A stretch of DNA of 25,348 nt from a virus. The stretch lies in the IMG/VR virus record IMGVR_UViG_3300032267_000595, positions 1-25,348 of that record. One strand, given 5' to 3'. Below the pieces are notes generated by a model. The model was not told the DNA's origin and did no database searches. It saw only the letters and a list, made by a program, of their open reading frames with translations. Both the position numbers and the translations under genes were made by a program. Of this stretch, positions 3 through 19,762 are shown one piece after another (the stretch's first letter is position 1; every line of letters starts with the position of its first letter).

Positions 3-98
3 ATGAATGAGCAGCAACACCTCTACTCTCAACATGGCGCCGAGCGTCTGTCAGCCATTCTTCGATACAAAAGGAAAAAGGAGGCCGACCGTGACTGA
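3..98 (+). CDS. Small basic protein, SAILRYKR family (31 aa, may be 5' truncated)
   Basis: A 31-codon frame opens at ATG 3 and ends at TGA 96-98. It ends in a basic tail containing SAILRYKRKK. The same peptide is encoded in the same frame by the short gene at 1032-1115, which is the main reason to take it as real. Its stop lies inside an 8-nt overlap (GTGACTGA) with the next gene, as expected for a translationally coupled operon. The window starts 2 nt before the ATG, so the ribosome binding site is not visible and the true start may lie further left. Function is unknown. The protein is too short to model a domain, and a competing frame from ATG 7 also covers this stretch. Confidence 0.45.
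   Translation: MNEQQHLYSQHGAERLSAILRYKRKKEADRD
51..74 (+). repeat. 24-nt direct repeat, copy 1 (second copy 1074-1097)
   Basis: TCAGCCATTCTTCGATACAA followed by AAGG occurs identically at 51-74 and 1074-1097. In both places it lies at the 3' end of a short frame (3-98 and 1032-1115) and encodes SAILRYKR. A polypurine ribosome-binding stretch for the next gene follows. The copies probably mark a duplicated small gene or gene junction. Confidence 0.9.
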
Positions 99-315
99 CG
101 ACATCGTGACCCGACTGCGCCATGTGGCATGGCTGGCCGAAGAAGGCAGCGACGTGACCGACCTCGCTGCCACCGCCGCTGACGAGATCGTGCGCCTGCG
201 TGACGCTGGCAACCAACTGCACGCATGGGTAACGGTCAACGCAACGAGCATCCAGCAGGAACGCGTTTCCCATGACAAAGTGCTCACCGCATGGGAGGAG
301 GCCTGCCGTGGCTGA
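91..315 (+). CDS. Small helical phage protein of unknown function (74 aa)
   Basis: I chose GTG 91 because AAGGAGG-like sequence (AAAAAGGAGG, 73-82) lies 8 nt upstream, and because the start overlaps the previous stop by 8 nt. An in-frame ATG at 7 would give 102 aa but has no visible ribosome site and would translate through the preceding small gene. The product begins MTDDIVTRLR and has a heptad-like pattern around residues 20-40 (ATAADEIVRLRDAG), so a short coiled coil is likely. Short TDDIVTRLR...ADEIxRLR proteins are common in phage genomes from memory, but none has a role I can name. The stop (313-315) lies inside the GTGGCTGA overlap with the next gene. Confidence 0.75.
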   Translation: MTDDIVTRLRHVAWLAEEGSDVTDLAATAADEIVRLRDAGNQLHAWVTVNATSIQQERVSHDKVLTAWEEACRG

Positions 316-1039
316 CGATCTAAACAAAGGAAACACGATGCACATCAAAATCGACACAACCAAACTGCTCAACTTGCTGGGCGAGAACGGCGAACACTGG
401 GTTCAAGGCAAGTGGGGTGACGACACCGCCATGTGCCTGCACGGTGCGATTCGTCGTTGCCAGCCGCAACGGGGTGACGCCTACCTCATTGAACAAGTGG
501 CACGACTGCAAGGTTGGGGCACCAACTGGAACGACAACAACAACACTGATTGGGCACAGGTGCGTCGCTTGATCGTGTCAGGCCTTGAAGTGACAGACGC
601 TGATCTTGCCGACACGTTCGGCCCACAGTGGGAGCAGATTGTTGCGTTGGTGCGCCGTGCCGCAGTGCTGACAACCGACGAACTAAAGCGGTTATCGGCC
701 GCTCGGGCCACCGCTCAGGACGACGCTCAGGACGACGCTCAGGACGCCTCTCAGTACATCGCTCGGCGCGCCGCTCGGTACAACGCTTGGTACACCGCTT
801 GGGCCGCCGCTTGTGGCGCCGCTCAGGACCACGCTCAGTACGACGCTCAGTACGACGATTGGTACGACGGTTGGTACAACGCTCAGGACGCCGTTCGGGC
901 CGCCGCTCGGGGACTTGTCATTCGTGACCTAATCGGCCAGCGCGGATTCACCCAACAGCACTACGACCTACTGACACAACCGTGGAGCAAGGTGATCGGC
1001 CCTGTTCATCCTGATGACAAGCAGGCCGACCGTGGCTGA
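308..1039 (+). CDS. DUF6197-like protein with 18 tetrapeptide A-x-x-x repeats (243 aa)
   Basis: GTG 308 has a very strong ribosome site (GGGAGGAGG, 293-301) and an 8-nt overlap with the previous stop, so it is preferred over ATG 338. The N-terminal region (about residues 20-105) contains CLHGAI (43-48) and WND (74-76), which resembles the DUF6197 family; that match is from memory. Residues 132-203 are 18 tetrapeptides starting mostly with Ala, then Q/R/W, then D/Y/A, then a variable residue (AQDD, ARYN, AWYT, AQYD). The C-terminal 40 residues (GLVIRDLIGQRGF...PWSKVIGPVHPDD) resemble the tail of repeat proteins seen in other phages. No enzyme motif is visible. The repeat DNA is described separately. 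A helical, possibly fibrous or multivalent binding role is only inference. Confidence 0.85.
   Translation: MADDLNKGNTMHIKIDTTKLLNLLGENGEHWVQGKWGDDTAMCLHGAIRRCQPQRGDAYLIEQVARLQGWGTNWNDNNNTDWAQVRRLIVSGLEVTDADLADTFGPQWEQIVALVRRAAVLTTDELKRLSAARATAQDDAQDDAQDASQYIARRAARYNAWYTAWAAACGAAQDHAQYDAQYDDWYDGWYNAQDAVRAAARGLVIRDLIGQRGFTQQHYDLLTQPWSKVIGPVHPDDKQADRG
701..916 (+). repeat. 18 tandem 12-bp coding units, pattern GCT-YRG-NNC-NNC
   Basis: Eighteen consecutive 12-nt units encode tetrapeptides. In the first 17 units the third base of every codon is fixed (T, G, C, C) in 67 of 68 codons; the exception is TGT in unit 10. First and second codon positions vary freely. Slot-1 alanine is always GCT, whereas alanine in slots 3 and 4 is always GCC. 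Slot 2 is only CAG, CGG, TGG or TGT. The last unit (GCT CGG GGA CTT) is degenerate. This is an in-frame tandem array with mostly amino-acid-changing differences. Confidence 0.95.
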
Positions 1040-1115
1040 CGACAACGCGCAACTATACCGAAATAGGTATAGTTCAGCCATTCTTCGATACAAAAGGGAA
1101 AAGGGGAAAGAATGA
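1032..1115 (+). CDS. Small basic protein, SAILRYKR family (27 aa)
   Basis: GTG 1032 opens a 27-codon frame (MADDNAQLYRNRYS, then SAILRYKREKGKE) ending at TGA 1113-1115. It starts within an 8-nt overlap (GTGGCTGA, 1032-1039) with the stop of the repeat protein, and its own stop overlaps the next ATG by 4 nt (ATGA, 1112-1115). Both ends are therefore placed as in a coupled operon. It shares SAILRYKR with the frame at 3-98 and MADD with the start at 308. A perfect 9-bp inverted repeat (1051-1074) lies inside it. Upstream only GCAGG is seen as a ribosome site. Function is unknown; it could be a leader peptide for the P-loop gene. Confidence 0.5.
   Translation: MADDNAQLYRNRYSSAILRYKREKGKE
1051..1074. 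promoter_or_regulatory. Perfect 9-bp inverted repeat
   Basis: AACTATACC, a 6-nt GAAATA spacer, then GGTATAGTT form a perfect hairpin or dyad. It is AT-rich and lacks a following T-run, so a classical terminator is unlikely. It lies 38 nt upstream of the P-loop gene start. It could be an operator, or an RNA hairpin that affects translation of the gene at 1112. Confidence 0.7.
1074..1097 (+). repeat. 24-nt direct repeat, copy 2 (first copy 51-74)
   Basis: This is identical to 51-74 and in the same reading frame of the short gene at 1032-1115. It sits between the inverted repeat at 1051-1074 and the start of the P-loop gene at 1112. Confidence 0.9.
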
Positions 1116-18356: not shown

Positions 18357-19466
18357 TTAGAATGGGCCATACTCTTTGTTATAGCGGTTGGATGCCTTAC
18401 GAGCCGCCCTAATGTCCTGCTTTTCCGTGGTGTTCATCTCTGTTGTGGGTTCTGATGAACGGTCTTGGGGGGTATTGTCTCCCCGTAACTTTTGAAATGT
18501 ACCTTTTACCTTTTCAAACATCGTAGAACGAGTAGGGCCAGTCGGTTGTACAGGCAACTCTTGGGTGGTGGGGCCGCCACTATGGCCGATGTAGGCCGCC
18601 CACGGGTCTACGTCGTGTTCACTCATGTTGTTCCAGTTCGTTGGCACGGTACCGGTTCCTCCGGGTGTATTGAGTTCAGGTGGTGTTCCTTGGTTGGGCA
18701 TACCACGGCGTGTTGGCCCCATCGTCACGGGAGTGGAGGGAGGGGTAGGAGGTGGTGTTCCTTGGTTGGGCATACCACGGCGTGTTGGCCCCATCGTCAC
18801 GGGAGTGGAGGGAGGGGTAGGAGGTGGTGCGGGGGTTGTGGTTGTGGCCGTTCCCGTGGCGGCACCACGCTGGGCACCACGGCTACTGGGGGCGGGAGTT
18901 ACTGGCGAAGTGGGAGGAGCGGGTTGGGCTGTCGTAGTCGCGGGTGCTGGAGTGCTCGCTCCTGCTGACGCCCCAGCCCGTCGTTGCGTGCGACTGCTAG
19001 GGGCCGCTGCTGCTGGCGCGCTGGCGTTAGCGTTGTTTCTATTTTGAAGGGCTTTGCTGTTAGCGATTGACTGCTGCTGTTGCTGTATGCCCTTAGCGAT
19101 GGTGTTAGTAGCCCTAACACCTCTGACAGCATTGATACCATTTCCAAGCGTATTGACCGCTCTAACTGCATTACCTAATTCAAAGTTAGGGCCAGCGAGC
19201 CGCCTATCGAAGTTAGGGTTTATCCCTGCGTTAGGGACGTTACCCATCATTGTGCCTCTTGCATAACGAGGGCCAGAGTTGAGAGTTGAGCCTATGGAAT
19301 TACCATAAAAGCCACCACCGTATTTAGCACGATCTGAAGTGTTTTGGAAGTTGGAACTCCGTCCCGCTGCGAAGTCGTTCTGGGTCGACCAATAAAGCCT
19401 GCGGATGGCTATCTCAGGTCTGTTAAGGAAGGGGTCTCCTGTTTCAAAAGGGTTGTAACCAGCCAT
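18357..19466 (-). CDS. Low-complexity Pro/Thr/Ala-rich protein, putative virion or assembly protein (369 aa)
   Basis: ATG 19466 follows TGGGAGGTGTGTG and overlaps the previous stop by 1 nt. Residues 1-120 are Asn/Gly-rich (NPFETGDPFLNRPEIAIRR...), residues 130-250 are disordered Ala/Pro/Thr/Arg, and then a 24-residue unit (TMGPTRRGMPNQGTPPPTPP plus STPV) is exactly duplicated. The C-terminal 100 residues end in a basic helix (KQDIRAARKASNRYNKEYG). It has no enzyme motifs. Composition and position among other disordered genes suggest a structural or scaffold role, but that is inference only. Confidence 0.75.
   Translation of the reverse strand: MAGYNPFETGDPFLNRPEIAIRRLYWSTQNDFAAGRSSNFQNTSDRAKYGGGFYGNSIGSTLNSGPRYARGTMMGNVPNAGINPNFDRRLAGPNFELGNAVRAVNTLGNGINAVRGVRATNTIAKGIQQQQQSIANSKALQNRNNANASAPAAAAPSSRTQRRAGASAGASTPAPATTTAQPAPPTSPVTPAPSSRGAQRGAATGTATTTTPAPPPTPPSTPVTMGPTRRGMPNQGTPPPTPPSTPVTMGPTRRGMPNQGTPPELNTPGGTGTVPTNWNNMSEHDVDPWAAYIGHSGGPTTQELPVQPTGPTRSTMFEKVKGTFQKLRGDNTPQDRSSEPTTEMNTTEKQDIRAARKASNRYNKEYGPF
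18679..18822 (-). repeat. Exact 72-bp tandem duplication inside a coding region
   Basis: The 72 bases at 18679-18750 are repeated without change at 18751-18822, followed by 7 bases of a third start (GGTGGTG). It encodes two identical 24-residue units in frame. Identity even at synonymous positions means the duplication is recent. Confidence 0.95.
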
Positions 19467-19762
19467 CACACACCTCCCAGAGTGTTCATTGAGTACCTGC
19501 CGCTGCCGTCGAATGTTCCCTCTGTTAGTTCAGAGTGCATGACAGGTAGGCCAGACACCCACGACCTGAACGTCGGGGCGTAGCGGTCGGTGTTAAGGAT
19601 GTCCATCACGGTTGGCTCTTGCTTCACCAAACCCATGCGGTCGGGAAACAACTGCTGAGGCACGGCAGGACGAATGGCCCTGATGGTATCAGGGTCACTA
19701 ATGGCTGCTTCCAACGCTTGGTCGGTAAGCATCTCCTGACGGGACTGCCACGGGCGTGCCAA
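19466..19762 (-). CDS. Hypothetical protein (98 aa)
   Basis: The frame begins with TTG 19762 (MARPWQSRQEMLTDQALEAA) 5 nt after the preceding gene; an in-frame stop upstream excludes a longer start and ATG 19732 would lack a ribosome site. TTG is therefore the best but uncertain start. The product is helical at the N terminus and ends in a Gly/Ser-rich segment. No family recognised. The gene is tightly packed between neighbours and overlaps the next start by 1 nt. Confidence 0.6.
   Translation of the reverse strand: MARPWQSRQEMLTDQALEAAISDPDTIRAIRPAVPQQLFPDRMGLVKQEPTVMDILNTDRYAPTFRSWVSGLPVMHSELTEGTFDGSGRYSMNTLGGV

Follow-up and report, generated by a model that had tools for sequence, protein, structure and literature searches.

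A gene close to one end of the 25,348-nucleotide stretch of viral DNA analyzed here (the window) encodes a tandem array of tetrapeptides in which the third base of each codon is virtually frozen by slot, whereas the first and second bases, and with them the amino acids, differ between units. In relatives, such arrays turn over in blocks, their silent bases are homogenized, and residue change is in excess at particular slots. On balance, we favor an account in which the array is a helical repeat that is re-copied in blocks under diversifying selection and that would act as a tunable interaction module against a variable defense.

The array and the gene that carries it

The array-bearing gene and the features around it are the following:

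51–81, plus strand: left copy of a 31-bp direct repeat
78–106 and 1019–1047: 29-bp repeat, the copies being 90% identical
91–315, plus strand: small upstream open reading frame
338–1039, plus strand: array-bearing gene, an open frame of 233 amino acids with its ATG at 338 and AAAGGA upstream at 326–331
338–697, plus strand: N-terminal DUF6197-like domain (MCLHGAIRRC...GDAYLIEQV...WND...FGPQW...VRRAA)
701–904, plus strand: tetrapeptide array GCT / xxG / xxC / xxC, 17 in-frame units of 12 bp within gene 338–1039
812–814, plus strand: TGT (Cys), the sole third base in the array that is off its slot
905–1036, plus strand: conserved C-terminal cap (RGLVIRDLIGQRGFTQQHYDLLTQPWSKVIGPVHPDD...), with a degenerate 18th unit before it
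1074–1104, plus strand: right copy of the 31-bp direct repeat, 97% identical

On recount, the third bases of the 17 units are T in 17/17, G in 16/17, C in 17/17 and C in 17/17 of the codons in slots 1 to 4, which is exactly the 67 of 68 given in the first-pass annotation. The interval given there, 701–916, holds as far as 904; the stretch from there to 916 is a broken 18th unit (GCT CGG GGA CTT). Wherever alanine occurs, slot 1 has GCT (13/13) and slots 3 and 4 have GCC (9/9), as had been noted, and the other genes of the window use the four Ala codons about equally (GCT 113, GCC 104, GCA 93, GCG 73). When the array was recoded according to the codon usage of the window, 20,000 draws gave on average 36 and at most 49 of 68 matches, and 67 was never reached. 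Together, the recoding test and the even Ala usage exclude codon preference as the cause of the frozen third bases, which had been dismissed as a cause at first reading, too.

The array contains no synonymous variants, and between its units pN is 0.394 versus a pS of 0.011. At minimum, the codon changes comprise 15 nonsynonymous ones at base 1 or 2, 1 nonsynonymous one at base 3 and 0 synonymous ones, which bears out the claim that nearly all differences between units change the amino acid. At neutral opportunity, this 15/1/0 distribution has a P of about 0.01; counted over whole units, third bases are spared in 25 of 26 changes (P = 0.0004). All four slots vary. The two slots at which relatives mostly keep Ala-Ala vary freely in the window array, where they are occupied by A/S/D/G/V and A/D/T/N/I/H, respectively.

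A contig of 33,134 bp (L001), possibly from the same sample, is 100% identical to the first 3,700 bases of the window. Since it carries the identical array, an assembly artifact in this interval is unlikely. It is also the one pair available for the window's own lineage, within which no change of the array was seen. No multi-unit block is repeated within the window array, so this particular array may be old and not in rapid turnover.

The gene at 338–1039 matches the profiles PHROG 8332 (E=2.5e-21) and PHROG 762 (E=9e-6). Its layout of N-terminal domain, array and cap is common to the homologues L001–L012 and to Orf55 of Skermania phage SPI1, which likewise combines a homologous N-terminus and an array with the same C-terminal cap. 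In the N-terminal domain, 35 columns are invariant across 11 relatives. A Pfam search with the window protein gave no direct match, DUF6197 (PF19698), Imm5 (PF14423) and Imm5-like (PF21805) included; a relative that is 51% identical to it (L010) matches PF19698 above the cut-off (E=1.3e-8), and we therefore describe the N-terminal domain of the window protein as DUF6197-like. DUF6197 occurs in actinobacteria and actinophages, and the array lies outside the Pfam domain. With the patterns used, no relatives of the N-terminal domain were confirmed in bacterial genomes. The cap is 65–79% identical in L002, L003, L005–L007, L012 and SPI1, though the arrays that precede it differ.

The structural model of the window protein shows helices throughout the array (pLDDT 83, pTM 0.83). 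The array fold is nevertheless uncertain, given that the model of relative L002 has a pLDDT under 50 across most of its array and that no solved structure matched the fold of the window protein with an E below 0.001.

Among relatives, the window-type gene sits in different neighborhoods, as expected for an accessory gene. Diverged relatives of the small upstream reading frame were found by tblastn in only L002 and L003 among the loci compared, on either side of the array gene. In the window, the small reading frame and the array gene are bounded by the 31-bp and 29-bp repeats, which gives them the look of a two-gene cassette inserted or duplicated through recombination. The window contig carries two WhiB genes, which indicates that the phage probably infects actinobacteria. 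Elsewhere in the window, a perfect 72-bp tandem repeat at 18678–18829 (2.1 copies, 100%), apparently a very recent duplication, lies within a proline-rich gene at 18357–19469 on the minus strand.

Third bases and variable slots across viral arrays

Complete arrays of relatives contain about 12 to 19 units, mostly of the form [Trp/Arg/Gln/Gly]-[Asp/Ala/Val/Gly/Tyr/Asn]-Ala-Ala. Each relative is frozen on bases of its own, the Ala codon being GCT in L002–L004, GCA in L006 and GCG in L009 and L012. Some arrays encode arginine as CGG and others as AGG; the same residue choice has thus been reached via different codons. Ordinary synonymous variation is not general among these relatives; the arrays of L005, L007 and some others contain linked third-base variants. 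Those of L005 and L007 show two third-base types that are linked to particular units, as expected if blocks are copied. On contig 3300042112_000429 (L005 / L015), a second window-type gene is apparently split across both contig ends, which suggests either tandem paralogues or a circular genome cut within the array.

A degenerate pattern that left the wobble bases of Ala and of the variable residues free found at least 120 stretches in viral contigs. Two sets were used: 105 arrays (1,688 units) from among the matches listed, which also include the window relatives and phage Tweety, and 154 viral arrays (2,566 units), which add a second scan with third bases fixed in the pattern and are hence biased. 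Among the matches listed, the 105 arrays have a mean fixation of 0.95 at the third base, 0.85 at the first and 0.86 at the second. Among the arrays listed, 26–28 different third-base patterns occur (28 in the set of 105), with all four bases following GC in slots 3 and 4. Two Ala codons in the same slot are identical in 94% of cases in the viral set, versus 30% in the flanks of the same reading frames. This identity within slots, with each relative frozen on its own bases, supports the earlier proposal that array descent can be read from the wobble base. Bacterial genomes contain similar arrays with the same behavior (33 arrays). BLAST clustering places the arrays in about nine flank families.

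Two further features of this set concern individual contigs. On L085, L108 and L136, two to five adjacent paralogues (LPNAxHIDxVxA [array] LIAWDD) occur per phage contig, with a different array in each. Where slot 2 is frozen on A or G (e.g., L033, L041, L042 and L106), its acidic residue is Glu and not Asp; the two are rarely found in one array, which means that the frozen base sets the residue alphabet.

In the window, a 99-codon Arg-rich open frame at 628–927 on the plus strand overlaps the array in another frame. The third bases might accordingly be constrained at the level of DNA or RNA, be it by an overlapping gene of this kind or by a nucleic-acid structure, and the other frames of arrays are indeed open over long stretches. 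However, the fixed base varies between phages, through the 26–28 patterns, and the alternative-frame peptides vary accordingly; the mixed, linked third bases of L005 and L007 also speak against such a constraint. An overlapping reading frame was rejected on the grounds that similar frames, although open in most such arrays, are not conserved. We find a constraint at the nucleic acid level scarcely credible.

The preferred account of re-copying under diversifying selection concerns the residues as much as the silent bases. We expressed changes in the 154 viral arrays as steps per mutational opportunity, where steps are minimum allele changes and not independent events. At slot 1, nonsynonymous steps at bases 1 and 2 reach 0.42, with 0.078 for third-base nonsynonymous and 0.056 for synonymous steps; at slot 2, the corresponding values are 0.27, 0.064 and 0.059. 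At the Ala slots, nonsynonymous steps (0.045) fall below synonymous ones (0.067–0.080). The excess change, 4–7 times the synonymous rate, is limited to slots 1 and 2, and the 105 arrays that predate the biased second scan give the same slot-specific picture. Because the first two bases of the Ala codons change little, the excess is specific to slots and not to codon positions, which does not support the idea, put forward in the first-pass annotation, of a process altering particular positions, if these are first and second codon bases in general. Its other proposal, diversifying selection, fares well: an excess at slots 1 and 2 so far above the synonymous level (0.42 and 0.27 versus 0.06–0.08) is, as judged from the sequences, diversifying selection that acts on particular residues against the background of a recently common DNA unit.

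Changes at slots 1 and 2 that alter the amino acid through the third base, such as Asp to Glu or Trp to Cys, occur as seldom as silent ones. We read this rarity as selection for property-changing residues, though a process confined to the four first and second bases of these slots would look alike. It is also what directed mutation of the first and second bases of the units, by a diversity-generating retroelement or by a mutator in phase with the repeat, has in its favor, as a position-specific process would match third-base nonsynonymous steps at the synonymous level (0.064–0.078 vs 0.27–0.42). Such a process is, however, at odds with the quiet first and second bases of the Ala slots, and the substitutions are of many kinds (C/T, A/G, G/T, A/C) and not adenine-specific, which argues against a retroelement. 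Following a check proposed at the outset, we looked for a reverse transcriptase and for a template repeat. A reverse transcriptase (RVT_1) was found in 0 of 11 array-bearing records, which are mostly fragments, so that this absence is no proof; the window contains no template repeat, nor a copy of the array elsewhere that could serve as template. Taken with the phages with identical flanks described below, whose arrays differ in unit order without new point changes, these observations make directed mutation very unlikely.

The changes might alternatively reflect a neutral or structural low-complexity helix, expanded by slippage, in which the residues mirror the tolerance of an alanine-rich helix and diversifying selection plays no part. 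Trp placement along the arrays shows no helical period (observed/expected 0.87–1.08 at lags 1–12), which, like the many residues accepted, fits a neutral helix, and neutral expansion alone would account for uniform third bases. What neutrality cannot yield are nonsynonymous steps at slots 1 and 2 at 4–7 times the synonymous level, or a pN of 0.39 with a pS of 0.01 as in the window. Moreover, unrelated proteins share the residue sets Trp/Arg/Gly and Asp/Ala/Gly and encode them with different codons, and the length of the array in Tweety gp54 has a phenotype. A neutral helix therefore appears unlikely, if less so than directed mutation.

Array turnover in Tweety-type phages

An array with invariant third bases and variable first and second bases was described in 2007 for gp54 of mycobacteriophage Tweety (PMC2884959). 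Like the window gene, gp54 and its homologues (PHROG 3416) carry a 12-bp/tetrapeptide array of this type, flanked by a conserved N-terminal domain on one side and by a short C-terminal end on the other, and the copy number varies among relatives. The gp54 units have two invariant Ala-Ala slots and two variable ones, whereas all four vary in the window. Between the N-terminal domains of the two proteins, BLASTP found no match and hhalign gave an E of 0.058 and a probability of 0.9%; no DUF6197 match was found in the Tweety family. The window array is a further case of the kind known since 2007 through gp54, and it is gp54-like at the level of evolution. Among open-license papers, a search for accounts of such arrays in general led to the Tweety papers alone. 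VR2 of bbp36 in Bordetella phage BMP-1 is reported to be another short repeat of variable copy number, in a gene that the phage can do without (PMC2884959); likened here by description, it has a 24-bp unit versus 12 bp in the window.

The flanks of Tweety, Taj, DeadP and KristaRAM are without any difference over 537 bp, and their arrays comprise 48, 30, 38 and 16 units, respectively. All four arrays are drawn from the same five unit types and differ just in copy number and order. Identical flanks around differing arrays indicate that units are gained, lost and reordered much faster than point mutations arise. Copy number does differ between phages, then, as had been anticipated, both in these four and among the relatives of the window, and the mere reordering of existing units is further evidence against a process that alters particular positions. 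In 12 Tweety-type phages, pN and pS are 0.025 and 0.161 in the flanks but 0.156 and 0.006 in the array units. In the viral set as a whole, blocks of three units recur about twice as often as when the arrays are shuffled (146 vs 72 +/- 7).

In the mechanism that we propose, the gene product would be helical throughout, its DUF6197-like N-terminal domain being linked to the conserved C-terminal cap by the tandem tetrapeptide array. Units of 12 bp would constantly be gained, lost and copied in blocks, probably through unequal recombination or replication slippage, and the array would thereby be rebuilt again and again. Such re-copying would keep the silent third bases uniform within each array while they drift between phages, a pattern that the comparison of arrays shows. 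Selection would favor different residues at the variable slots, so that amino acids would diversify on a frozen silent background. PRDM9 zinc fingers and TAL effector repeats, too, have homogenized silent sites and diversifying contact residues; they are, unlike the window array, DNA-binding repeats with long units in unrelated proteins, and the analogy is an evolutionary one only.

A putative adjustable counter-defense module

Tweety mutants that escape the defense of a Phrann or MichelleMyBell prophage carry more or fewer gp54 units (PMC9262239, PMC8549241). Phage members of the Imm5 and Imm5-like families (PF14423, PF21805) also carry an array of this kind with frozen third bases, which overlaps the immunity-like domain; the window protein differs from them, matching no Imm5 profile and having an N-terminus that does not align with theirs. 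Of the 32 members of the largest array-carrying family, 7 have matches to Imm5-like immunity proteins. The phage protein at L051:3098–3949, from the same flank family, has DUF7666, Imm5-like and array regions.

From the Tweety escape mutants and the 7/32 Imm5-like matches, we infer that the array could form an adjustable interface. Changing its length and residue order would provide a quickly adjustable binding surface, or spacer, between two conserved domains, and by analogy with Tweety gp54 this might be used to neutralize a variable defense or toxin of the host or of a resident prophage. The window protein would, on the same analogy, most likely be an adjustable anti-defense protein. No defense system or partner was identified for the window phage, and the search of anti-defense libraries gave no PADLOC match. 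More tentatively, and with considerable doubt, the array proteins of the approximately nine phage flank families (Imm5-like, DUF6197-like, Tweety gp54-like and others) and of bacteria could represent a general recognition system, fast-evolving and convergently used, that tracks the variable toxins of abortive-infection or polymorphic toxin systems by shuffling and diversifying short helical units.

The combination of frozen silent bases and changing residues offers a simple sequence signature of arms-race proteins. Tweety gp54 is, in the papers that could be searched, the sole such phage protein tied to a function, namely tunable counter-defense. As the signature is shared by many phage proteins that have unrelated flanks and of which some are immunity-like, candidate anti-defense genes may be found by sequence alone, and what the units recognize becomes a question that can be tested in cultured mycobacteriophages.
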